From a virus, in the IMG/VR virus record IMGVR_UViG_3300022707_000179, positions 1 through 31,834 of that record: a stretch of DNA of 31,834 nucleotides, one strand, 5' to 3'. Both the position numbers and the translations under genes were made by a program. Each line of letters opens with the position of its first letter. The first letter of the stretch is position 1. Positions 13,711 through 24,015 of this stretch are shown piece after piece. A model generated the notes under the pieces. The model was not told the DNA's origin and did not search any database. It saw only the letters and a program-made list of their open reading frames with translations.

Positions 13711-14205
13711 TTACCAGTATTTTGATTCAGCCTCTAATCTAGCAGAGATGGCATCTTCTTTCTTTAAGAATGTGCCTAGGCTAATTGATTTATCATTTAC
13801 CATAATTCTAGCCCTCCACTTATTCGAGTCCTTTCTAAAATTAACGCCAGAGCTTCCACTTTTATTATCTTTGTGTCTATTCTGGTTTTTGCCATTTACA
13901 CTATGACTTACACTTCTGATGTTTTCCCATTTATTGTTCAGTCCGTTGCCGTCTATATGGTCTATTTCTTTTGGTTGCTCCTTGGTCATTAAAACCCAAG
14001 CAACCCTATGGACATAATAAAACCCAGTTTTAAACTTAAACCTGTAATACACCTTTTTTGAGGTTTTTGCCCCGCAAACATGCTTACATCCAACAATAGA
14101 GCCTACTACGTACTGGTTAACCTTTATCTTTCTTCTTATCTCGCCTGTTTTGATATCATACGAAAAAAAGGAGTTGAAAGAATCGAAATCTATATGTTTA
14201 GCCAT
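13711..14205 (-). CDS. HNH homing endonuclease with AP2 DNA-binding domain
   Basis: 164 aa. HNH core: YYVHRVAW (H66) and IDHIDGNGLNNKWENIR (D82, H83, N87, N91). Residues 117-160 (SGSSGVNFRKDSNKWRARI, ISLGTFLKKEDAISARLEAE) form an AP2-like DNA-binding domain. This HNH-AP2 layout is typical of free-standing phage homing endonucleases that nick or cut related genomes lacking them and spread by repair. It interrupts the otherwise tight coat-gp4 stretch without splitting either gene, the usual sign of a mobile insertion. Its ribosome site is inside a strong stem-loop, implying low translation from long late transcripts. Confidence 0.9.
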   Translation of the reverse strand: MAKHIDFDSFNSFFSYDIKTGEIRRKIKVNQYVVGSIVGCKHVCGAKTSKKVYYRFKFKTGFYYVHRVAWVLMTKEQPKEIDHIDGNGLNNKWENIRSVSHSVNGKNQNRHKDNKSGSSGVNFRKDSNKWRARIMVNDKSISLGTFLKKEDAISARLEAESKYW

Positions 14206-14210
14206 AAATA

Positions 14211-14256
14211 CCTACCTTTGATTAAAGCTAAATAATAGCAAATAACCAAAGATAGG
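14211..14256 (-). promoter_or_regulatory. stem-loop sequestering the HNH ribosome-binding site
   Basis: On the minus-strand RNA, CCTATCTTTGGTTA (from 14256) pairs with TAATCAAAGGTAGG (to 14211): 14 bp with two G-U pairs. An inner GCTA/TAGC stem lies in the loop. The AAAGGTAGG ribosome site lies in the 3' arm and the HNH ATG (14205) starts 6 nt after the stem. The structure should block initiation unless opened or bypassed by a shorter transcript. T4 homing endonuclease genes are known to be silenced by similar hairpins. Confidence 0.7.
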
Positions 14257-14269
14257 GCAACGTTAACGT

Positions 14270-15550
14270 CTACGGATTCCCAAATCCTTGACCAGCAAAG
14301 AACGGATTCATTACGCCATATGCAGGACGGAAATCAATTCTTACTAAGTTTTGGTTTTCAAGGAAATTTGTTCCTTTACTTACTCGTAACTGTAAGCCGT
14401 CAGCAGTAGTGGCAACAGTATCGGTACTATGCAACTTCTTAATCGGAACAGAAGCAACAGTAAACGCTTGCTTATGCCAGAATAAGTTAGGCTGAATAAT
14501 CGTACTAGCAGCGCCGCCTAGAGTGATAATATCACCTGCTTCAATAGCTGTATCAACAGTATTATATTGACCATCAGGCTCATTGATTGCTGGACCAGTG
14601 ACCGTTAAGTTACCAGCACCACCGGCACTAAGCACAACGTCTGCTACAACTGTTGCAGTCCATACAACTTGTGAACCAGTATCATCAATAACTGGTAAAC
14701 GAGTCGATAGGTTTAGACGGTTACGGCCTGTGATAGTAATAGTTTCACCGGCTTTAACTTCTAAGTTAGCTTGGAACGCTGTTACACCGATAACCTGAGT
14801 CATAGTGTCTTTAGCTGCTAAATAAGTAGCAACCGGAACACCGACAACAGTACCGTCACGAGTTGAACCAATGCCAGTTTGGTAGTTAGCCAAAGTGGTA
14901 GCGGTCATTACTTTCATACCAGCAAAGTTTTCGCTAATGGTTGCAGTTTGGTTAGCTGTCATTGAACCAGTTTCGCCGCCTAGACTACGTTGATCGCCCG
15001 ACAGTTTACGCTGTGCAAATGGGTTAACCGCATAATTCCACATGCCATCTTTAGGAATACCAGTGGCTTGCATGATTGCGCCTGCTTCTGCTACATCACC
15101 CCAAGCGTCACCGCCTGCACCGATTGCTGAACCAACAGTACCAGCAAGTAATGCTGTATTAGCCATCATAAACGCTGCATAGTCAGTTTCAAAATCAGTA
15201 ACAATACGGGTCGCCATTGGAGCGAGCAATTCATCAAGCTGATCCATTTTAATGGCTTCGTCTGCTTCGTCATAATCAACGAAAGAGGTGAAGTAATCTT
15301 GAACAACTGCCGATGCTTTACCGGTAATAATTGAAGATTTAGTTTCACTAGCCACGTTACCATCAGGAGTACGAACCGTTCTAAAATCAGTCGGACGTTT
15401 TACGTCAATCGTATCACCGGTAGAGCCGTTAAACTTACCTGCGAATAACTGAGTATCCACGTTTTTAGTTAAGACACGTTCAGATTCGAACTTGTCCAAG
15501 AATGAACGCATTAGTTTGCGCGAGAAATTACTGTCAAAATTGTTAGCCAT
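14270..15550 (-). CDS. P22-type major coat protein
   Basis: 426 aa (P22 gp5 is 430). The N-terminal ANNFDSNFSRKLMRSFLD, the KNVDTQLFAG and DTIDVKRPTDF motifs, and NPFAQRKLSGDQRSLGG all match the P22 coat family (HK97 fold). A beta-rich block at about 235-330 (VKAGETITITGRN, VVWTATVVADV) corresponds to the inserted domain region, and the C-terminus (LVRIDFRPAYGVMNPFFAGQ) to the shell-closing strands. It forms the icosahedral shell around the scaffold. AAAGGAG lies before its ATG, a strong site suited to high expression. Confidence 0.95.
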   Translation of the reverse strand: MANNFDSNFSRKLMRSFLDKFESERVLTKNVDTQLFAGKFNGSTGDTIDVKRPTDFRTVRTPDGNVASETKSSIITGKASAVVQDYFTSFVDYDEADEAIKMDQLDELLAPMATRIVTDFETDYAAFMMANTALLAGTVGSAIGAGGDAWGDVAEAGAIMQATGIPKDGMWNYAVNPFAQRKLSGDQRSLGGETGSMTANQTATISENFAGMKVMTATTLANYQTGIGSTRDGTVVGVPVATYLAAKDTMTQVIGVTAFQANLEVKAGETITITGRNRLNLSTRLPVIDDTGSQVVWTATVVADVVLSAGGAGNLTVTGPAINEPDGQYNTVDTAIEAGDIITLGGAASTIIQPNLFWHKQAFTVASVPIKKLHSTDTVATTADGLQLRVSKGTNFLENQNLVRIDFRPAYGVMNPFFAGQGFGNP

Positions 15551-15564
15551 GAGTGGCTCCTTTA

Positions 15565-16374
15565 TTATTCAAATTTAGCCCCTTTGATGTTTTTATATCC
15601 ATCATTGGGAATTACACTATTACCTTGCAGTGTTTCCACTGGGTCGGGCGTGTTGCTTGTTTTCGGTTTTAACGCTGCTGCACTCTTTTTAATTGCATCT
15701 AATTTACTACCAATTGCATAAGGACTCATATTAACAAGCTCTGATGCTTCCATTGGGTTTGCTGCTAAATGTTTAGTAATTAATGGGCCATCTGGGTCTG
15801 ATACAATATGCTTGATCAAATCATCAGATAATCCATAAGTACCAACAGTATTAGCCGCTACTTGTAATTCTTCTGCATTAATGCCTAATTCATTAGCTCG
15901 ATTACTATAATCAGTAAGCTTCTTGTTGAATTCGACCTGTTGTGCTGCTTGCGTTGCTTGTTGTTGACTCTGTTGCTGCTGTAAATAAGCCTGGTTGTTA
16001 GCGTCATAAGTCGCCTTATCCTGTATAGCTTTTACATAAGCCTGCTGTTTTTCTTGATAATCATCATCAAATTGGTCTGGAGCTTCTGGAATATTACCGG
16101 CTGCTTTAGCTTGCCGTTCACGTTCTTTAGCTTCAAACTCTGCAACTTTAACGTTTGCCGCATCACGTTCCCGCTCTGCCTGCTTAGTTTCAAAATGCTT
16201 TTGATTAATGGTTTTCTGAATAGCTGCTTGCTTTTTAGCTTCTTCTTCAACTTGTTCATTTGATTCAGCTTGAACTTGCTCTGTAGTTTCCGACTCTACA
16301 TTAGAATCATTATTTTCGATTACTGGTTGTTCAATTTCTGACTCAATAGTATCGTTTTGCGGAGATTCACTCAT
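15565..16374 (-). CDS. scaffolding protein
   Basis: 269 aa (P22 gp8 is 303), placed directly upstream of coat as in P22. Very acidic N-terminus (residues 1-50), long charged and Gln-rich helices (50-165, with EAKERERQAKAAG and runs of Q), and a Lys-containing C-terminal part ending IKGAKFE. In P22 the basic C-terminal helix-turn-helix binds coat. It directs procapsid assembly and then leaves. No protease is seen nearby, consistent with P22-type release of intact scaffold. Assigned by position, composition and length. Confidence 0.8.
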   Translation of the reverse strand: MSESPQNDTIESEIEQPVIENNDSNVESETTEQVQAESNEQVEEEAKKQAAIQKTINQKHFETKQAERERDAANVKVAEFEAKERERQAKAAGNIPEAPDQFDDDYQEKQQAYVKAIQDKATYDANNQAYLQQQQSQQQATQAAQQVEFNKKLTDYSNRANELGINAEELQVAANTVGTYGLSDDLIKHIVSDPDGPLITKHLAANPMEASELVNMSPYAIGSKLDAIKKSAAALKPKTSNTPDPVETLQGNSVIPNDGYKNIKGAKFE

Positions 16375-16445
16375 GATTTACGCCCTTAAAAGGTATAGTC
16401 TTTCGACAGTGCCAGCAATTAAAGGTTTGCTGTAGACCTTGTTAT

Positions 16446-16475
16446 ATTATACGGTGTTTGCTATATTGATTGCAG
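16446..16475 (-). promoter_or_regulatory. candidate promoter for scaffold-coat genes
   Basis: On the minus strand a perfect TATAAT (16451-16446) has CTGCAA (16475-16470; 3 of 6 matches to TTGACA) 18 bp upstream, about 70 nt before the scaffold ATG. It lies in the divergent region between scaffold and the antisense cassette. The weak -35 leaves this uncertain. Confidence 0.35.
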
Positions 16476-16495
16476 ATAGGCGATTAAGCTATAGG
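16466..16495 (+). promoter_or_regulatory. candidate promoter for the antisense small-gene cassette
   Basis: TTGATT (16466-16471), an 18-bp spacer, and TATAGG (16490-16495), 14 nt before the cassette's first ATG at 16509. It overlaps the divergent minus-strand candidate, so the two could interfere. Each box has 4 of 6 consensus matches. Confidence 0.35.
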
Positions 16496-16508
16496 CTAAA
16501 GGTGATAT

Positions 16509-16670
16509 ATGTTTACAAAGTTGATATATGATAGGGGCTACACAGTAAAAGAAGCGTGTGAAGTATGGGGTATTCGTTATGATGTGTGGCGCAGAAAATG
16601 CCGTAACCCTAAATTAAAAGCACAATTACTGTGTATGTGCCGCGGATTAGAATTAAAGGAGTGTGAGTAA
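16509..16670 (+). CDS. small HTH-like protein, first gene of the antisense cassette
   Basis: 53 aa with AAAGGTG before the ATG. YTVKEACEVWGIRYDVWRRK (residues 11-30) reads like a helix-turn-helix, followed by a basic segment. Three Cys lie close to the C-terminus (C42, C44, C52), plus C17 and C31. It may be a small DNA-binding regulator, possibly of its own divergent promoter; not recognised as a named family. Its TAA overlaps the next ATG (TAATG). Confidence 0.55.
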   Translation: MFTKLIYDRGYTVKEACEVWGIRYDVWRRKCRNPKLKAQLLCMCRGLELKECE

Positions 16671-16882
16671 TGAAAGCTAATATACCTATGACGCCTCGAT
16701 GTATTGCTGCGTTGGTCGGGTACCTAATCGACCATGATGATGATATAAAGGTGGGGATTAATGATTTTGACGATCTAAGGATTGTTTATAATGAGCTAAT
16801 AGCTGATGTTGATCCTAACGGGCTTATTGGTTGGGAAGATATGACTGATTGCGAAAGAAGATCATTCAAGGAAAATAAATAA
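16670..16882 (+). CDS. small acidic hypothetical protein
   Basis: 70 aa, strongly acidic (DHDDDIKVGINDFDD). TAATG overlap at its start and a one-base overlap at its end, with AAAGGAG upstream. No domain recognised. The acidity could suggest a protein-binding or DNA-mimic role, but this is not supported by any motif. Confidence 0.55.
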   Translation: MKANIPMTPRCIAALVGYLIDHDDDIKVGINDFDDLRIVYNELIADVDPNGLIGWEDMTDCERRSFKENK

Positions 16883-17055
16883 TGAATAAATATACAAGAA
16901 AGCAAATTAACATCAAGCCACAATTGCACAGTAAACAGTTTGTAACATGGGAGGATGCTAATACAGCTATGATGCAATTAGCCGCTGCCGCTGTCAGTGT
17001 CGGAGCAGATGAAGATAAACTGATTGAGTTTTTAAACAAGGGTAATAATGATTAA
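16882..17055 (+). CDS. small hypothetical protein
   Basis: 57 aa. Basic N-terminal part (MNKYTRKQINIKPQ), then a helical Ala-rich segment (AMMQLAAAAVSVGADE) and an acidic-amphipathic end. Overlaps the neighbours at both ends (one base; 8 nt), and AAGGAAAA lies upstream. Unknown function. Confidence 0.5.
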   Translation: MNKYTRKQINIKPQLHSKQFVTWEDANTAMMQLAAAAVSVGADEDKLIEFLNKGNND

Positions 17056-17356
17056 ATATCTACCAATATTACTGGTATCAATTAACGTTAATGCGGTAGA
17101 GTTCGATATTAAATCATTTCTCGATAAAACCTATGTAAAAATTGGAGTAGGTTATAAGTTTAACGAGACACCTTTATATAATGACGGTGCAAGGTTTAAT
17201 GAGCCTTTATCAGCACAATTTGAGTTATCGTATCAATGGTCTGATTCTATTACTATAGGTTATCGTCATCGCTCTCAGTGGCTAGCAGGTAATCCAGAGT
17301 ATTATGTTGATGAGTTGTTTGGTGAATTTAAATTTAGTTTAGGGGGTTTGCTTTGA
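17048..17356 (+). CDS. exported beta-strand protein (moron candidate)
   Basis: 102 aa. Residues 1-16 are a signal peptide (MIKYLPILLVSINVNA, cleavage after NA). The mature 86 residues alternate polar and hydrophobic residues in strand-like segments: YVKIGVGYKF, SAQFELSYQW, SITIGYRHRSQW, ELFGEFKFSL. This looks like part of an outer-membrane or periplasmic beta-barrel protein. Small exported phage proteins often change the host surface or block superinfecting phages; that is inference here. It sits on the opposite strand to all surrounding virion genes, in a cassette with its own terminator. Confidence 0.65.
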   Translation: MIKYLPILLVSINVNAVEFDIKSFLDKTYVKIGVGYKFNETPLYNDGARFNEPLSAQFELSYQWSDSITIGYRHRSQWLAGNPEYYVDELFGEFKFSLGGLL

Positions 17357-17514
17357 AAAAGATCAGAAGCTTTAAATGCTCAGAATGTAAAACAAGCTTT
17401 GAGCGCATGGTAATAGATAGTGTTTTAATCGTTAACTGTGAATGTAAAGGCTTAGCTAATCGTAAACTATCAGCGCCTAAGTATTCAGGGGTAAGAACTA
17501 AGTTTGACTATTAA
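17353..17514 (+). CDS. small zinc-ribbon protein
   Basis: 53 aa, starting with TTG that overlaps the upstream TGA (TTGA) and is preceded by AGGGGG; no ATG offers a better start. FKCSECKTSFERMV and VNCECKG give CxxC (C9, C12) and CxC (C29, C31), a zinc-ribbon pattern. The C-terminus KYSGVRTKFDY resembles small zinc-ribbon proteins of other phages. It may bind nucleic acid; no function known. Confidence 0.6.
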   Translation: MKKIRSFKCSECKTSFERMVIDSVLIVNCECKGLANRKLSAPKYSGVRTKFDY

Positions 17515-17518
17515 AAAG

Positions 17519-17541
17519 AAAGGCTCAATCAAGAGCCTTTT
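17519..17541 (+). terminator. rho-independent terminator of the antisense cassette
   Basis: Stem AAAGGCTC (17519-17526) / GAGCCTTT with a 6-nt loop and a T-run to 17541, 4 nt after the zinc-ribbon stop. The A-run on its other side means it may also work for minus-strand transcripts that would otherwise run into the cassette. Confidence 0.85.
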
Positions 17542-17560
17542 AATAGCATTCAGTTTGTTA

Positions 17561-17695
17561 TTATTGAGACTCTAGTTTAACTATTCTTTCCTCTAACATC
17601 TCAAACTCATTATCAACAAATCCGATGCGGTATGAAAGGACCGCACCTAATAGCATTATTATAATACCGATTAGGAGCTTTTCTTTGTCGTTCAT
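17561..17695 (-). CDS. small membrane protein
   Basis: 44 aa. N-terminal MNDKEK, a membrane helix (residues 7-21, LLIGIIIMLLGAVLS), then a C-terminal charged coiled-coil-like helix. AGGTAGA precedes the ATG, 4 nt after the upstream stop at 17700. It is the last gene of the accessory-virion block before the convergent terminator. Function unknown. Confidence 0.55.
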   Translation of the reverse strand: MNDKEKLLIGIIIMLLGAVLSYRIGFVDNEFEMLEERIVKLESQ

Positions 17696-17699
17696 ATAT

Positions 17700-18944
17700 C
17701 TACCTCTCCGCTACAACATAGAAGCTATCAAGCTCGGCAGTTACGTTTCCTGATGAACTATTATTTGTCACCTCTAGGAATATATAATCATTTTGGTCTA
17801 TTTCAACATGACCAAACAAATTAAAGAACGCTACATTTCTGCCGCCGGATAGATTGTTTACTACTCTAGTTTGAGATTCTATAGTTGATGTTGATGTTGT
17901 TGCGAAGTCAAACTTTCTAACCCTTATTTCTACCTCATCATTTTGCGGCCCCTCAAGTATTATATTCATAACGAATAAAAAATCTCTAGGGCTTACACCT
18001 AAATTCCTAGCCTGTCCGTTTGTTGGGTTGTCAAAATGAACGATTGATTCAGCATTAAACGTACCAGCCAATACCTCAAATGTACCTTGCGTGTTAATGG
18101 TTGTCTCTGACTCTGCCGATATAGAAAGCTTAATTCCTACGAATGTGTTTTTCATCCCTTGGTTTTCAATAAAAGACGAGGCAAGGTCGGACTCTGCAAT
18201 GTTTGGTGTTATATTTGTGTCTTCTGCGTCTGCTACGCCGTCTCTTGTGATTATGCAACCATCTAATTGTAATGTAGAAGGGTTGGCAAAGTTAGCCGGT
18301 GCAAAATCTAAAAACGAAGCGTTAGCGGGTAGGTCAATGTTTTGATTAGATCTAAATCTAGATGCCATAGCAAAGCCAGCACCCGCTTTAAATAAAGAAT
18401 AAGAGCCATCAACTAAGTTTCTCACTATTGATGTATCTAGAAAATAACCGCCTACCCATGTGCCGACAAGTGTTAACTCAGGAGTACCACCAAAACGACC
18501 CGTTCCAACCTCTAGCCCTTGACGGTAATTATCAATAGATCCTAACGACGAACAATCGTTGTAATTTATACGCGAGAATTCAAAAGCATTAAAGCCATTA
18601 TCGCTTACTATGTTGTAAACTTGTGAACCCGCGCCTGTGACCTCGATCGCGTAATCCTTGCCTAATATATTGCCGCTACCGCTAACAGGCGAAGTAAATA
18701 AAGTATAGGCAGCTGCACTCGATGTTAATTTAGATAGATCAAAACTATAGCCTGTTAGAGTTAATCCTCCTTGTGGTATCTCTACCGACTGACTTCCCAT
18801 ATCAATAACGCCATCAAGAAAGTATTCCTTGTTACTGTCTAAAGATCCTGACAGGTCCGAGGCTTGAGTCACTATTACTCTATTTAATAACCCTGAACTA
18901 CTACCGCTCCCACCATTAGGATCAAAAGGTTTAAATCCACTCAT
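17700..18944 (-). CDS. accessory virion protein (beta-rich, fibre-like)
   Basis: 414 aa. Gly/Ser-rich flexible N-terminus (PNGGSGSSSG), then strand-turn repeats typical of a beta-helix (SVEIPQGGLTLTGYSFDLSK, GGTPELTLVGTWVGGY, NPSTLQLDGCIITRDG). The C-terminal 150 residues look like a beta-sandwich (VEIRVRKFDFATT, VEIDQNDYIFLEVTNNSS). I have seen similar beta-helix proteins next to portal genes of marine phages. Possibly a head fibre or decoration protein. ATGA overlap with the upstream gene. No enzymatic motif found. Confidence 0.6.
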   Translation of the reverse strand: MSGFKPFDPNGGSGSSSGLLNRVIVTQASDLSGSLDSNKEYFLDGVIDMGSQSVEIPQGGLTLTGYSFDLSKLTSSAAAYTLFTSPVSGSGNILGKDYAIEVTGAGSQVYNIVSDNGFNAFEFSRINYNDCSSLGSIDNYRQGLEVGTGRFGGTPELTLVGTWVGGYFLDTSIVRNLVDGSYSLFKAGAGFAMASRFRSNQNIDLPANASFLDFAPANFANPSTLQLDGCIITRDGVADAEDTNITPNIAESDLASSFIENQGMKNTFVGIKLSISAESETTINTQGTFEVLAGTFNAESIVHFDNPTNGQARNLGVSPRDFLFVMNIILEGPQNDEVEIRVRKFDFATTSTSTIESQTRVVNNLSGGRNVAFFNLFGHVEIDQNDYIFLEVTNNSSSGNVTAELDSFYVVAER

Positions 18945-19459
18945 GTTCTTCTCCTAAATGCTGATACATACAAATTAACCTGCCTAGTTTGACCGTCATT
19001 GTGAACAACCCTTAATGTGTAGTTAGTGTTAGGCTTAAATATTATCGGATAACCTAAAGTGAATGTTGTTGATTTACCGGTAGCGTTATCACCTACATTT
19101 TGAACAGTGGGTAATATCTGTGTGCCTATATCTGAAATAGTCGCATCAACAACTAAACCAGTAACCACAGCAACAAAATCAGAGTTTCTATCATTGTTAT
19201 AAGCTGTTACAGGAGTACCACCAGTAAATACAGTGTCTTCAAATAAATCAAAAGTTAAATCACCGCTATTACTATTAACAACAGGCGAGTCCATTACTAT
19301 CTGTTCGCCGTTTGTCGATATGATTAATTCAAAGCCCGATCCGCTTGTTAGTGATTTATTTACACCTACCAGAAAAGTGCCGCCGGTATAAGTTGCGCCT
19401 ATACCACCACTAGCCATACTTGCGGTTTTTGTTGCTGCTGATTCAGGAGGGCTAAACAT
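18941..19459 (-). CDS. accessory virion protein, beta-rich
   Basis: 172 aa from ATG 19459, chosen because it overlaps the upstream TAA (TAATG) with AGGAGG upstream. Nearly all strand-forming, with Ser/Thr/Gly/Asn turns; the C-terminal YPIIFKPNTNYTLRVVHN and NLYVSAFRR resemble a jelly-roll or Ig-like decoration fold. Lies between two other small structural genes after portal. Function inferred from composition and position only. Confidence 0.6.
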   Translation of the reverse strand: MFSPPESAATKTASMASGGIGATYTGGTFLVGVNKSLTSGSGFELIISTNGEQIVMDSPVVNSNSGDLTFDLFEDTVFTGGTPVTAYNNDRNSDFVAVVTGLVVDATISDIGTQILPTVQNVGDNATGKSTTFTLGYPIIFKPNTNYTLRVVHNDGQTRQVNLYVSAFRRRT

Positions 19460-19725
19460 TATGCCTCCTCGATATGTAACGTTGTTCCTGCGTGTGCATA
19501 AGCCCAAACACCAACAGGAGCAGACGCGCTTGTCATAAAGTTATTTTCAGATACTAGATTAAAACCGCTTGTTAATTCAGGTTGTGCAAGTGATTCGACT
19601 AATCGAGCCTCGTTGCCGCCTGTGTTTTGTATGATTAATTGAGTACCTAATGTAATGCCAGTTGCGGCATATAGGTCAACCCATATTTTGGATGGTAATA
19701 CTACTTGAGGCAATGATGTTGCCAT
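19459..19725 (-). CDS. small conserved virion-associated protein
   Basis: 88 aa. LPQVVLPSKIWVDLYAATGITLGTQLIIQN is a pattern I recognise from small phage proteins encoded near portal or decoration genes (V-L-P-S-x-x-W-x-D-L-Y-A-A-T-G-I). Beta-rich. AGGAG lies before the ATG. Probably a head decoration or small structural protein; role not established. Confidence 0.6.
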   Translation of the reverse strand: MATSLPQVVLPSKIWVDLYAATGITLGTQLIIQNTGGNEARLVESLAQPELTSGFNLVSENNFMTSASAPVGVWAYAHAGTTLHIEEA

Positions 19726-19868
19726 AATTTTAACTCCTAAAAAACGTGCTTCCTTGCACCGTTGGGAAAGTTAAAATTATGTTGGGGTTGGTTTACGTTG
19801 GGAGGTTTGGGGCGTTAGCGCTAACTAGGCTTTCCCAACAAAAGCCTAGAATTATTATAACACGTTTA
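19726..19868 (-). promoter_or_regulatory. structured non-coding spacer after portal
   Basis: No ORF. It holds a 9-bp hairpin CTAGGCTTT (19825-19833) / AAAGCCTAG (19841-19849). A 10-bp inverted repeat GTTGGGAAAG (19761-19770) / CTTTCCCAAC (19830-19839) shares bases with that hairpin, so the two are mutually exclusive. GTTGGG occurs three times (19761, 19781, 19797), each complementary to the hairpin loop. There is also a perfect 12-bp palindrome GTTAGCGCTAAC (19814-19825), and on the minus strand a TATAAT at 19851-19856 and a weak stem before TTTTTT near 19736-19743. Likely a regulatory RNA region or an attenuated promoter separating portal/terminase from the decoration genes. Confidence 0.5.
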
Positions 19869-22067
19869 TTATTCTTGTGTACCCTCTTGCTTTTTATGGT
19901 TGTTTTGATGCTCTGATTGAATCATCTTGCCTGCTTCAATGCTAAATCTTGCCTCAATCTCTCTCATTTTTAATGCAAAATCATCTTCCATCTTGTGAAG
20001 CTTTTGGCCTAAATCAACCCAGCCTTGTTCTAGTTTCTCTTGCCCTTGTTGGATTTTAGCAGCATCAACATTGAACTTATCATCTTGGCCCTTTAAGAAC
20101 TTCTGGGTATCTAAATCAATAACCTTATTCCTTAATTCTAAATCAGCCATTTTGATCTTATTCTCGCTTTGTATTTGAACCTGTTTATTCTGTGCCTCTT
20201 GCATATCAGCTTGGCCTTTTAATTCTTCGGCTCTTGCTGCAACCATCATTGGATCTTCTTGTGGTGGCTGTTGTTGCGCCGCTTCTTGTTGAGCTTGAAC
20301 CTTTTCTTTTTCTTTGTCAGTCCATTGAGACTCAGGTATTAAACCATTATTAAACAGTTGTTCCCTTGCTCGCTCGGCTGCCATATCCATACCTGGTATC
20401 TTTAAGTTTTTGAGCCACAAATCTTTATTAAGTGATGCTGTCTCAGGGTCAATCGCTGCCATATCTAAGAATGCTTGTGCAGTTTCTTTTTGCTGACTGT
20501 TAAATGCTGGACCTACTTCACAAACCACATCGTATTCACCGATAGATAAGTCATTCAGTGTAATGTTTTTACCTGTTTGTTGGTCTAGTATCGGTTGATT
20601 AAGCACTACCATTGAACCAGAACCATCTTCTTCAAGTATTCTAACTTGTCGAGTAGCATCATATACTCTAGGTATGGCGTTAATGATTACTTTACCAGTG
20701 TGACAAATAGCAACTTCAAGCGCTTTAAACCATTTGATAGAGCCTATGTTGCCTTGGTCTATTTGATTCTTTCCAGCTATACCTGATTGAGTTGGAGCAG
20801 CATTACCTTGTTGAGCTAAGAAGATATTGGCGCTTGAACCTATCATCTGTTGCATGTTACTGATAGTTGTCTGTAACCCTGCACTTGGTTGTGGTCCACC
20901 GGTAAATGTAGGCAATAAACTGGGGTTGGCACTGTCTGTATTAAAGATACGAACAGGGGCGCGATCAGTATTCATTTCTGAATAGTCGTTACCCTCTGCC
21001 ATTTCATCAGTCATCCATACAGTAGGTGCAGGACTTAATGAACCATCTTCAATATCTCGACTCATAGCATAGTTTAATGCGCGTTGTTGGTCGTAAAGAT
21101 TCTCGATTTTACCGTAGTAAACTGCTTTATTCTCAACGATATCAAAGTTACCGTATACCGGTATAATCGGAATAAAATCAAATACCGTTTCTTTAGGATC
21201 ATCTAACCATTGAGCACCGTCAAGCATACGAGAATGAACACGCCATGATTTGCGCTTCCTGCGTTTCTCGTTACCTTCTGCATCTTTTTCAATAGTTATG
21301 CCTGCTTGTGCTAATTCATCTTGAACCTTTTCAAAATCATCATCAACTTTATATACTGCGCCGTTAGTCATCCGTACTATTTCAATAGTAACCGGCTCTT
21401 TATAATATAACTGACCAATAATTACCGACTCAGCTTTATTAAAAAACGCTTCATCTTGTTTATCTTCACTGATTGATTGACCTACAACATCAGGATACTT
21501 TTCTTTAAAGTTTGCAGTAGGTATGGCTAGTAATTTAATGGCCCAACTTGCATCACTTCTATCTTGTAATACTGAGTTCAAGTCAAACCATACACTATCA
21601 ACAGCGCTAGGAATTCTACGAATAAATAAATCTTGGTCGAATGAATCACCATCAACCCAGTCTTGAACTACTTCCCAAGCATCAAAGCCGCCTATTACAT
21701 TAGAGCGCCCTGCCGCTTGAAATACATTTTCAGCATTGGATATGTTGCGAATATTTCTAATTAAACCATCAAGAGTTTTTGCAGTATCTTCTGAGGACTC
21801 ACCACCATTAGGGCTGACTCTTAATGTGAAGTCTGATTGATCTATTTCACCGGCTATTTGATCAATGATAGGAGTACACATATCAAAAGTGCCACGGTAG
21901 CGACCTTCCATTTTACCAGTGGCGTATGGGTCCCATTGTCCATCACGTTTAGTAATAAACAATTTAGCCTCTCTTGATGCTTCGCGTTGGTCTTGCTCTG
22001 CATCTTGTGCTTTTTGGACCATGATCAATACATCAGCATGATCATCAAATTTAATAGTTATCGGCAT
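19869..22067 (-). CDS. P22-type portal protein
   Basis: 732 aa (P22 gp1 is 725). The N-terminal half matches the P22 portal family: QREASREAKLFITKRDGQWD, RPxFDM-like RGTFDMCTPIIDQIAGEIDQ, and AGRSNVIGGFDAWEVVQDW. The C-terminal 110 residues are a long Gln- and charge-rich helix (QAQQEAAQQQPPQED, then QNKQVQIQSENKIKMADLEL) matching the barrel of P22 portal. It forms the dodecameric vertex through which DNA enters and leaves. Overlaps terL by 10 nt, giving the P22 order terS-terL-portal. Confidence 0.92.
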   Translation of the reverse strand: MPITIKFDDHADVLIMVQKAQDAEQDQREASREAKLFITKRDGQWDPYATGKMEGRYRGTFDMCTPIIDQIAGEIDQSDFTLRVSPNGGESSEDTAKTLDGLIRNIRNISNAENVFQAAGRSNVIGGFDAWEVVQDWVDGDSFDQDLFIRRIPSAVDSVWFDLNSVLQDRSDASWAIKLLAIPTANFKEKYPDVVGQSISEDKQDEAFFNKAESVIIGQLYYKEPVTIEIVRMTNGAVYKVDDDFEKVQDELAQAGITIEKDAEGNEKRRKRKSWRVHSRMLDGAQWLDDPKETVFDFIPIIPVYGNFDIVENKAVYYGKIENLYDQQRALNYAMSRDIEDGSLSPAPTVWMTDEMAEGNDYSEMNTDRAPVRIFNTDSANPSLLPTFTGGPQPSAGLQTTISNMQQMIGSSANIFLAQQGNAAPTQSGIAGKNQIDQGNIGSIKWFKALEVAICHTGKVIINAIPRVYDATRQVRILEEDGSGSMVVLNQPILDQQTGKNITLNDLSIGEYDVVCEVGPAFNSQQKETAQAFLDMAAIDPETASLNKDLWLKNLKIPGMDMAAERAREQLFNNGLIPESQWTDKEKEKVQAQQEAAQQQPPQEDPMMVAARAEELKGQADMQEAQNKQVQIQSENKIKMADLELRNKVIDLDTQKFLKGQDDKFNVDAAKIQQGQEKLEQGWVDLGQKLHKMEDDFALKMREIEARFSIEAGKMIQSEHQNNHKKQEGTQE

Positions 22068-23587
22068 ACTGAATTAAACCTCATTTTAGTTTTCTTGTTT
22101 AAGTTAACCGGCTCGGCAAATGTTAATCCACCAGCATCACCGAAGTCAGGACTAAACCCATACTTGGATTTAATCTTATCCTTTGACCATAATACTCGCC
22201 TATCGTTTGAATCTCTATCATATGGACTAGCGCATAAGTCAGCCTGTAATTCATCACTATCTGGAATATCAACCGGCAAGCTTTCGTCAACTAGCCAATC
22301 AGCCATCTCGCCCCACATTTCATTCCTTTTATTCTTGTACTTCTTAGGTTTCAATGTGCTTGCACCAAAGTATATAGCCTTAACTCTGCCTTTATATCCT
22401 AGTTCATGCAACCTATCAACGATATCAACACCACCACCGGCATCAACAAACATCTTATCTGGCTTCTTGCCTGCTATCGGGCAAACGGTATCTAGTATAT
22501 CAATACAAATAGCTACATTCTTACCTAGTGAGTTACACTGTTCACCTAAAAAGCTTTGCATTTCGTACATCTTGCGACCATGGCGCTTAATAGTAGCGAA
22601 CCTATCGCCACCTCTTGAGGGATCAACACCTACAATTAATGGACCACTGCCGTTTTCTTTTCTGCTTCTTGCTGACATACAATGATCGGGACTTATTAAA
22701 CCATCACTACCTGATACTTGAAAAGCCTCAGCCGCGTTCATAGGGTATTCTTGTTTAAATGCTTTTGAACCGTCTATACCGTCAGTTGTTAGTTCAGCTA
22801 TTTTCATTCTACGCCAGAACATCTGCTCCCTGGTTAACTTGTGCTGATTAAGCAATATCATTTCTTCATCGTCAAATGATACACCATCAGGTAAAGCCTT
22901 TTTATATTCAGACTGCCAGAACCAAGGCACAAAGATAGGTATAAATTCACTCAACCCCTTCTCTGCTAGCTTCCATTGTTCGTGAAAGTAATTGCCAACA
23001 CCATTTGCGGTACTCTCTAAGATTACTTCTGTTCCATCTGCATCAGGTACGGCTTGCATTATTCCTTTTGTGTGCTCGCTTGCGTTTAACCAAAATGACA
23101 CCTCTGAACCATGAAAGTATTGTATAGTTTGACCTCTACCTACTACCTTGTTTCCTGCTGTACCTATTTTGTAACCTGAATCTAATTTATCAAATTGTAA
23201 TTCTTTAGCGTTTGCAGCTCCGACTGTTGGCTTAACAAATACCGGTAAGTTTTCATAATAACGCTCAGTCATTTCAAACAGTGCGTTAGTTGATTCGCCA
23301 TCGTGAGTTAATATAAATGCCCGTACACCTTTATTATGTGTTGTACGCCATATGTATCTACCTTCAACGTATGTACTTGCACCTTGTTGCCTACCTTTAA
23401 GAATGATAGCCCTAACTTTGCCAGTGTCTTTTATTTGTTGTTCAATTCTTTTATGAATGTATTGCTGTGCATCATTAAGCACTAAAGGTTGAAGTCCTTC
23501 GTTCTTGGTCCTAATCTTTAAACAGTTTCTAGCGTAGAATTCAAAGTCATTCTTTAGCTGTAATCGTTTATCAGTCAAGTGAGTCAA
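22058..23587 (-). CDS. terminase large subunit
   Basis: 509 aa (P22 gp2 is 499). ATPase: Walker A KGRQQGAST (64-72), Walker B/acid HGSEVSFW (159-166, E162), motif III ESTANG (191-196). RNase H-like nuclease: D322 in VGVDPSRGGDR, D382 in FVDAGGG, and D481/D484 in SPDFGDA. It cuts concatemeric DNA and pumps it into the procapsid. The only start that covers the whole domain is TTG (23587; another TTG is three codons later), within the last codons of terS, so translation is probably coupled to terS and kept low. Confidence 0.95.
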   Translation of the reverse strand: MTHLTDKRLQLKNDFEFYARNCLKIRTKNEGLQPLVLNDAQQYIHKRIEQQIKDTGKVRAIILKGRQQGASTYVEGRYIWRTTHNKGVRAFILTHDGESTNALFEMTERYYENLPVFVKPTVGAANAKELQFDKLDSGYKIGTAGNKVVGRGQTIQYFHGSEVSFWLNASEHTKGIMQAVPDADGTEVILESTANGVGNYFHEQWKLAEKGLSEFIPIFVPWFWQSEYKKALPDGVSFDDEEMILLNQHKLTREQMFWRRMKIAELTTDGIDGSKAFKQEYPMNAAEAFQVSGSDGLISPDHCMSARSRKENGSGPLIVGVDPSRGGDRFATIKRHGRKMYEMQSFLGEQCNSLGKNVAICIDILDTVCPIAGKKPDKMFVDAGGGVDIVDRLHELGYKGRVKAIYFGASTLKPKKYKNKRNEMWGEMADWLVDESLPVDIPDSDELQADLCASPYDRDSNDRRVLWSKDKIKSKYGFSPDFGDAGGLTFAEPVNLNKKTKMRFNSVCR

Positions 23588-23915
23588 TCCATTCTTCGTG
23601 TGTTAAGTCTACATTAAGAGATTCAACCTTTTGAGTTGTTACCCTGTCTATTACTTTGTTAGCTGTGTTTAAATCGTCAGAATCTAGGTTGTTGCTTATG
23701 ATACGCCTAGCTTTCATAGTGGGCGAATTCTTTAGTTTGTTTTTTAGCTCCAGAAACTTAGGGTTGTCTTGGCAGTAGCTATATAGAGTAGATGTACTAA
23801 TTTCTGCATAACAACAAGCTTCTGTGTCAGTACAACCCCACGTAAACGAATCTTTTAGTAACTGGAGTGTCTTGTCTGTCATTTTTGTAGGCGCGCCGCC
23901 CTTATCTTTTGCCAT
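23571..23915 (-). CDS. terminase small subunit
   Basis: 114 aa. GGAPTKMTDKTLQLLKDSF, then a helix-turn-helix (GCTDTEACCYAEISTSTLYS, about 27-47) and a charged helical C-terminus. Small HTH proteins with this KGGAPTK...T...KL opening that precede TerL are small terminase subunits; they bind the packaging start site and regulate TerL. Overlaps terL by 17 nt. A pac site, if inside terS as in P22 gene 3, cannot be recognised by eye. Confidence 0.85.
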   Translation of the reverse strand: MAKDKGGAPTKMTDKTLQLLKDSFTWGCTDTEACCYAEISTSTLYSYCQDNPKFLELKNKLKNSPTMKARRIISNNLDSDDLNTANKVIDRVTTQKVESLNVDLTHEEWIDSLD

Positions 23916-23956
23916 TATTGGTTCCTTAACTCCTAATTAACCCAATTATATCATAA

Positions 23957-23980
23957 ATAAAAAAAGCCCGTAATGGGCTT
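23957..23980 (-). terminator. rho-independent terminator upstream of terS
   Basis: Minus-strand stem AAGCCC/GGGCTT with a 5-nt loop followed by TTTTTTTATTTAT (A-run 23957-23965 on +). It lies about 40 nt before the terS start, so it ends transcripts of the 24016-26313 block unless they are antiterminated. Terminase would then need readthrough or its own promoter; none is obvious in the 41 nt before terS. Confidence 0.75.
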
Positions 23981-24015
23981 ATACTTAGGGTGGCAACTAG
24001 TTAACTTGCCGTTGA

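Follow-up and report, generated by a model that had tools for sequence, protein, structure and literature searches.

An antisense accessory island with a recurrent small HTH-type gene at the portal-scaffold junction of P22-like marine podoviruses

Here, we describe a cassette of five small genes that lies inside the head operon of a P22-like podovirus, antisense to the structural genes around it, and thus illustrates that accessory islands can occupy such a position. In P22-like marine podoviruses, the junction of portal and scaffold genes serves as a hotspot of insertion, and the first gene of the cassette, orf1, is the recurrent anchor of the islands found there, as first or near-first gene. 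We give about even credence to the view that the cassette is a self-regulated accessory operon of the Acr/Aca-like type, used in lytic infection at a head-operon hotspot. In the following, the window denotes the whole stretch of DNA that was analysed, a virus record of 31.8 kb (31,834 nucleotides), which is apparently an incomplete fragment.

In a Pfam search of the window, a P22-type coat gene (PF11651, E 1.9e-46) and a P22-type portal gene (PF16510, E 2.4e-131) were found on the minus strand and, judged by these two genes, the genome that hosts the cassette is a P22-like podovirus. One flank of the cassette is formed by the scaffold gene (PHROG 8865; 15565-16374, minus strand), the other by sense genes of 44, 414, 188 and 88 aa that lie between portal and cassette (17561-19725, minus strand). 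Between these flanks, five open reading frames (ORFs) run on the plus strand from 16509 to 17514, opposite to scaffold, coat and portal, and are linked by overlaps of 1-8 nt. With a GC content of 36.0% versus 38.3% for the window (13.6th percentile of same-size windows), the cassette is no outlier in composition. A DNA near-identity search with positions 14000-24000 of the window gave no match in phage records. Two neighbouring genes were observed in addition. An HNH homing-type endonuclease (PHROG 99, E 6e-53; 13711-14205, minus strand) is located immediately 3' of the coat gene. The 414-aa protein on the portal side of the cassette (17700-18944, minus strand) belongs to PHROG 16509, whose function is not known, and its gene sits downstream of coat in relatives, e.g., L010 and L011, indicating a mobile position within the structural region.

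The preliminary description of this DNA had proposed five overlapping small genes opposite to the structural genes. The ORFs were confirmed, three of them by homologues and by their substitution patterns. All five are on the plus strand. Orf1 (16509-16670, 53 aa) encodes a small HTH-type protein, orf2 (16670-16882, 70 aa) an acidic protein and orf3 (16882-17055, 57 aa) a helical protein that represents the second most widespread island gene. The product of orf4 (17048-17356, 102 aa) is beta-rich with an N-terminus that, by eye, resembles a signal peptide, and orf5 (17353-17514, 53 aa), which starts with TTG, encodes a Zn-ribbon-like protein with a CxxC...CxC motif. Other contigs carry homologues of orf1, orf3 and orf5 in the same order. 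As pN is lower than pS in 78 of 78 orf1 pairs (medians 0.205 and 0.768) as well as in all compared pairs of orf3 (28/28) and orf5 (10/10), these three are real genes under purifying selection. Orf2 and orf4 are known from this window only, with no relative of either among the fetched loci. For orf4, tblastn in phages and a pattern search in viral contigs returned nothing, and a comparison with PDB sequences gave a single chance match to a de novo protein. The coding status of orf2 and orf4 rests on tight packing, Shine-Dalgarno sites and a weak codon bias; in codon-usage scoring, frame 1 was the best in four of the five ORFs, with scores that overlap those of spurious antisense frames. Sub-threshold Pfam matches connect orf5 to the zinc ribbon PF09723 (E 0.004) and hint at YfaZ, an outer membrane family, for orf4. 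The AlphaFold2 model of orf3 is helical (pLDDT 79), and tblastn with orf3 in phages found nothing.

A coat-protein search of viral contigs yielded 196 relatives, of which 80 loci were kept, and the whole portal-scaffold interval is present in 35 of these. A comparison of this interval between relatives had been proposed before. It separates 14 empty intervals (47-131 bp), 14 with antisense small genes and seven with sense genes only. The frames called antisense in L013 and L071 face long sense genes and were regarded as spurious; both loci were counted as sense-only. Rather than all five genes being conserved everywhere, the content of the interval varies between relatives, which supports the earlier view of an accessory cassette of the moron kind that has a promoter of its own and starts with a small HTH-type gene. 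The length of antisense-only intervals ranges from about 0.5 to 2.9 kb, and in Sf6 and HK620 the interval measures 13 bp. The coat of L014 is 80% identical to that of the window, yet its interval is empty, and thus gain or loss of the island is frequent. Orf1 is present in 11 of the 14 antisense islands, orf3 in eight and orf5 in four. In loci that include neighbouring genes, orf1, orf3 and orf5 repeatedly follow one another in this order, on the strand opposite to scaffold, coat and portal; changes of order are few (L107 and L121, identical with the contigs of L007 and L012). A single locus, L119, departs from the antisense rule, with orf1 and orf3 on the strand of the portal.

With a minimum length of 40 aa, 240 antisense ORFs were called in the islands; 72 are core genes, and the remaining 168 form 114 clusters. 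This cargo is almost wholly orphan: of 86 representatives, at most five received a Pfam name (N6/N4 DNA methylase, HTH_26, HTH_3 of the Cro/C1 type, AP2 and DUF7336), to which a PHROGs scan adds HNH endonucleases. The cargo DNA methyltransferase, an orphan one, is confined to the near-identical trio L001, L002 and L004. No acr gene is among the matches listed for the 86 representatives by PADLOC, Pfam, PHROGs and NCBIfam, and in the cassette of the window neither a known anti-CRISPR gene nor any other named gene for counter-defence is present.

The regulatory part of the islands is not bound to this one position. In two relatives, a second antisense mini-island without orf1 lies directly 3' of coat (L036, 8327-8872, and L109, 2167-2673) and shows the same promoter and repeat that are described below. 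In the second island of L036, one gene start together with the repeat was seen to be duplicated. Searches of viral contigs found 34 contigs from orf1 and 36 from orf3, with overlap of the two sets. Eight of the 34 orf1 contigs have no match to a P22-type scaffold, coat or portal (L137, L139, L141, L142, L144, L145, L148 and L149), and one of them, L145, holds a p414 fragment. L141, which was examined over its whole length, is siphovirus-like; its terminase and portal genes, as well as those for head morphogenesis, scaffold and major head, belong to an unrelated lineage. Here too, orf1 is located antisense and immediately ahead of scaffold, and promoter and repeat accompany it. The promoter/repeat module with orf1 is thus reused across two unrelated phage lineages.

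The first gene had been described as HTH-like. This stands with respect to the predicted fold, as the AlphaFold2 model shows four helices in an HTH-like arrangement (pLDDT 82, pTM 0.59); in Pfam, the HTH matches of orf1 stay below the cut-off. HTH folds are common. Foldseek with the model gave no significant match (E>2). In a second structural comparison, the best neighbours of the model include Aca1 of phage JBD30 (Z 5.0-5.2 over 51 residues, rmsd 2.8), which ties with chains of the unrelated HEPD and one NE0471 chain. The likeness to Aca1 would fit an HTH protein and does not prove kinship. An orf1 profile run against PDB sequences, and thus against Aca proteins with solved structures only, returned no Aca chain at E values up to 10. 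More distant homologues were found in seven Vibrio phages (profile E values between 7e-17 and 4e-15, from a search of small size). In Vibrio phage 1.131.O, the homologue belongs to an antisense pair between two genes annotated as 'coil containing', upstream of the major capsid gene. The other six carry it within accessory runs, some of them close to genes for NinX, DNA methylases or a Lar family protein, and in 13VT501A, 1.054.O and 1.112.O these runs are co-directional and follow the terminase.

The cassette is preceded by a sigma-70-like promoter (16439-16467, plus strand) that consists of TTGTTA (16439-16444), a 17-nt spacer and TATATT (16462-16467). A candidate promoter had been noted before, and its architecture proved to be conserved in relatives. 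Its support comes from this conservation upstream of the relatives' cassettes, because promoter-like matches near the cassette are no commoner than in shuffles (4 found versus 5.9 expected). An inverted repeat, ATAGGCGATTAAGCTAT (16476-16492, plus strand), lies at roughly +1 to +18 if counted from the predicted transcription start. It is near-perfect in relatives and degenerate in the window, where it agrees with ATAGGC/GCCTAT at 10 of the 12 arm positions and is a candidate for either an operator or a 5'-end RNA hairpin. Across 126 loci (1.15 Mb), ATAGGC-N5-GCCTAT occurs with at least 11 of 12 positions at 24 sites, compared to 3.5 expected under a Markov model. Of the 24, 20 stand immediately ahead of a ribosome-binding site that belongs to an antisense ORF; at 19 of these 20 a promoter-like sequence was seen by eye ahead of the repeat. 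The repeat accompanies a close orf1 in 16 of 25 loci and a divergent orf1 in none of 10 (Fisher P 0.0005, with groups assigned by hand, relatedness uncorrected and near-duplicates counted once, and with L087 and the loci of unknown orf1, L008, L018 and others, left out). L019 and L023, which scored 10 from leader sites off the repeat position, entered this test as repeat-lacking. At the other end of the cassette, a terminator-like hairpin (17519-17540) separates the convergent cassette and portal-side genes. It had been called a clear terminator; the hairpin is real and the wording overstated, since its T-tract is better on the minus strand, and it is probably bidirectional.

This layout can be compared with acr-aca operons, in which a small HTH gene (aca) goes with an inverted repeat located at the promoter of the operon (excerpts of PMC9410906), and with the anti-CRISPR accessory region (RGP G) of Mu-like phages of P. 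aeruginosa, which contains variable tiny genes (excerpts of PMC4378225). As far as these sources go, the island is likewise a variable run of tiny, mostly orphan genes with a small gene of putative HTH type and a repeat near the promoter, and by this match of layout the cassette is read as a self-regulated accessory operon. Its sigma-70-type promoter would be served by the host polymerase, and expression would probably be early and antisense to the late genes. Orf1 would most likely act as the regulator of the island, a repressor that binds the inverted repeat at the transcription start as its operator and so limits a strong promoter facing into the late genes. The interchangeable small cargo would most likely aid host takeover or counter-defence during lytic infection. 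In several respects the island differs from acr-aca operons: orf1 is usually the first gene, whereas aca follows the acr genes; the repeat is placed shortly after the -10 box and not inside the core promoter; the phages are apparently virulent and carry no known acr gene; and orf1 has no detectable sequence kinship to solved Aca proteins.

Credible, though on the whole rather unlikely, is a simpler explanation, namely ordinary accessory early genes without a dedicated regulator, with the repeat as a transcript-stabilising hairpin at the 5' end of the mRNA and orf1 as just another small early protein. It draws on the repeat itself, which begins at about +1 and whose left arm reads ATGGGC opposite an unchanged GCCTAT in 11 of the 20 promoter-associated cases. 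Such an exchange keeps an RNA stem by G-U pairing and breaks the dyad symmetry of the DNA, so the repeat may be a 5' hairpin of the mRNA, and these arms suit an RNA hairpin at least as well as an operator. The co-directional accessory runs of 13VT501A, 1.054.O and 1.112.O are in agreement with this. Against the self-regulated operon, a good repeat is absent from nine of the 25 loci with a close orf1. Against the simpler explanation, the repeat tracks the orf1 subfamily and is missing with divergent orf1. The module also precedes the second islands of L036 and L109 that lack orf1, as would be expected of an operator recognised in trans; a portable 5' hairpin is equally possible there. The island offers a practical handle: orf1 as marker, the promoter/repeat signature and the fixed address could be used to find accessory genes, possibly for counter-defence, in marine phages that appear virulent.

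On the opposite strand, the junction holds a second set of signals. The putative leader of the scaffold mRNA contains a conserved H-type pseudoknot with strong covariation (16413-16440, minus strand; S1 AAGGT/ACCTT, S2 CAGCAA/TTGCTG), located 38 nt before the scaffold ATG and followed on its 3' side by a GTC-GAAA-GAC hairpin (16398-16407, minus strand). A conserved TATAAT box (16446-16451, minus strand), possibly the scaffold -10, lies 6-7 nt upstream of the leader structure and falls within the spacer of the cassette promoter. Near this box, a -35-like hexamer was also seen by eye in L013, L014 and L115, where no antisense promoter is present. Box and hexamer together suggest that, within the late operon, scaffold has a promoter of its own.

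Two types of leader were evaluated with sequences picked by eye among those showing the pseudoknot, so that their counts are no estimate of prevalence. In the first type (27 leaders), 87.1% of the cells pair versus 76.0% in shuffles, with none of 500 shuffles as high, and covariation is 0.365 versus 0.156 in shuffles and at most 0.089 in all slid versions. In the second type (17 leaders, including Pseudoalteromonas virus H6/1 and Vibrio phage 340E47.2), 96.6% pair and covariation is 0.499 versus 0.101. An automatic scan of 72 leaders, in which a score of 23 was reached by 50% of the leaders and by 1.25% of mononucleotide shuffles, gave no pseudoknot match in L011, L019, L020, L030, L032, L067, L073, L074, L109 and L151, and some best matches (e.g., in L007, L029, L033, L053 and L157) are probably not the pseudoknot element. 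The initial scan, likewise with mononucleotide shuffles, was weaker, as 8% of shuffles attained the observed median, and the best matches in L014, L019, L099, L102 and L151 were weak or different ones. Since the pseudoknot is present in the cassette-free L014 and L046, it belongs to the scaffold gene. Rfam gave no match on either strand for positions 15000-18500 of the window.

The scaffold protein of P22 is subject to post-transcriptional autoregulation. We hypothesise, from the leader sequences, that the pseudoknot is a candidate control element for scaffold synthesis, and it provides, beside the cassette, a concrete RNA on which this control could be studied. In PMC12005531 and PMC9962691, the terms searched found no mention of scaffold autoregulation, and a literature search with subscription papers mostly outside it turned up neither the antisense island nor the scaffold-leader pseudoknot. 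A bolder proposal, which we regard as speculative and quite improbable, would treat the 134-bp junction of scaffold and orf1 as a switch that works in both directions. A portable module of promoter, repeat and Orf1 would drive antisense counter-defence islands on one strand; on the other, the -10 box would start the scaffold mRNA at a controlling pseudoknot. The module would have moved between unrelated lineages, each time upstream of scaffold, and Orf1 or another factor would couple the shutdown of the island to head assembly.

The preliminary description had favoured lysogenic conversion or superinfection exclusion. Expression as a moron from a prophage, with orf4 as an envelope protein, finds some backing in the antisense layout, the separate promoter and the terminator hairpin, all of which suit morons, and in the signal-peptide-like start and YfaZ hint of orf4. 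P22 itself offers a precedent with its prophage-expressed exclusion genes sieA and sieB (excerpts of PMC10883804). The gene content of the relatives does not support lysogenic conversion. Tyrosine integrase (PF00589), S24 repressor (PF00717) and serine recombinase (PF00239) were found in none of 25 related records, comprising 22 IMG/VR contigs (including that of the window) and the phages H6/1, ZP9 and 340E47.2, many of 34-42 kb and no IMG/VR record listed as at least 90% complete. The controls Sf6 and HK620 were positive for PF00589 and PF00717, and a separate PF00589 run on 30 records found none. As the record of the window is a fragment, lysogeny genes of its own could be missing from it. 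A search of the GTDB-species genome collection gave no true relative of orf1: 2 of 60 pattern matches survived tblastn, and both were rejected for poor profile scores (E 0.0013 and 0.35) in unrelated proteins. The absence of the three lysogeny gene families sought, next to positive controls for two of them, makes lysogenic conversion unlikely, the gene content suggests that the island-bearing phages are apparently virulent, and we regard the prophage explanation as very doubtful.

Hardly probable is that the antisense transcript itself is functional and interferes with the late operon, timing portal versus scaffold and coat expression: the recurrent antisense orientation, the fixed place beside scaffold in two unrelated lineages and the overlap of the cassette promoter with the conserved TATAAT box speak for it, whereas the empty (14/35) and sense-only (7/35) intervals, the variable length of the antisense-only ones and the purifying selection on the encoded proteins speak against it.

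Several other known arrangements resemble the island in part. Like lambdoid and P22-type morons, as defined in excerpts of PMC4378225, it consists of accessory genes with their own promoter and terminator between genes that are adjacent in relatives; unlike these, it unites several genes in one operon, among them a recurrent anchor, runs against the operon around it and belongs to phages in which no lysogeny genes were detected. With the nin region of lambda, again as far as described there, it shares short, packed, dispensable and sporadically shared genes, and a further link is given by the Vibrio phage homologues of orf1 beside or near NinX genes; it differs by its antisense position inside the head operon. 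A positional counterpart was found in the P22-like marine podovirus vB_PspP-H6/1 of Pseudoalteromonas (KX257490), where four small antisense CDS, gp05-gp08, occupy the same portal-scaffold interval; unlike the cassette of the window, they have no orf1, orf3 or orf5 homologue found and no ATAGGC repeat. ZP9 and 340E47.2 show no antisense CDS in this interval. In Shewanella phage ZP9 (L083, 9108-10682), five small annotated antisense CDS were observed slightly farther downstream, between a gp4-like gene and the next late gene, and this run is another antisense island at a different position of the head operon.
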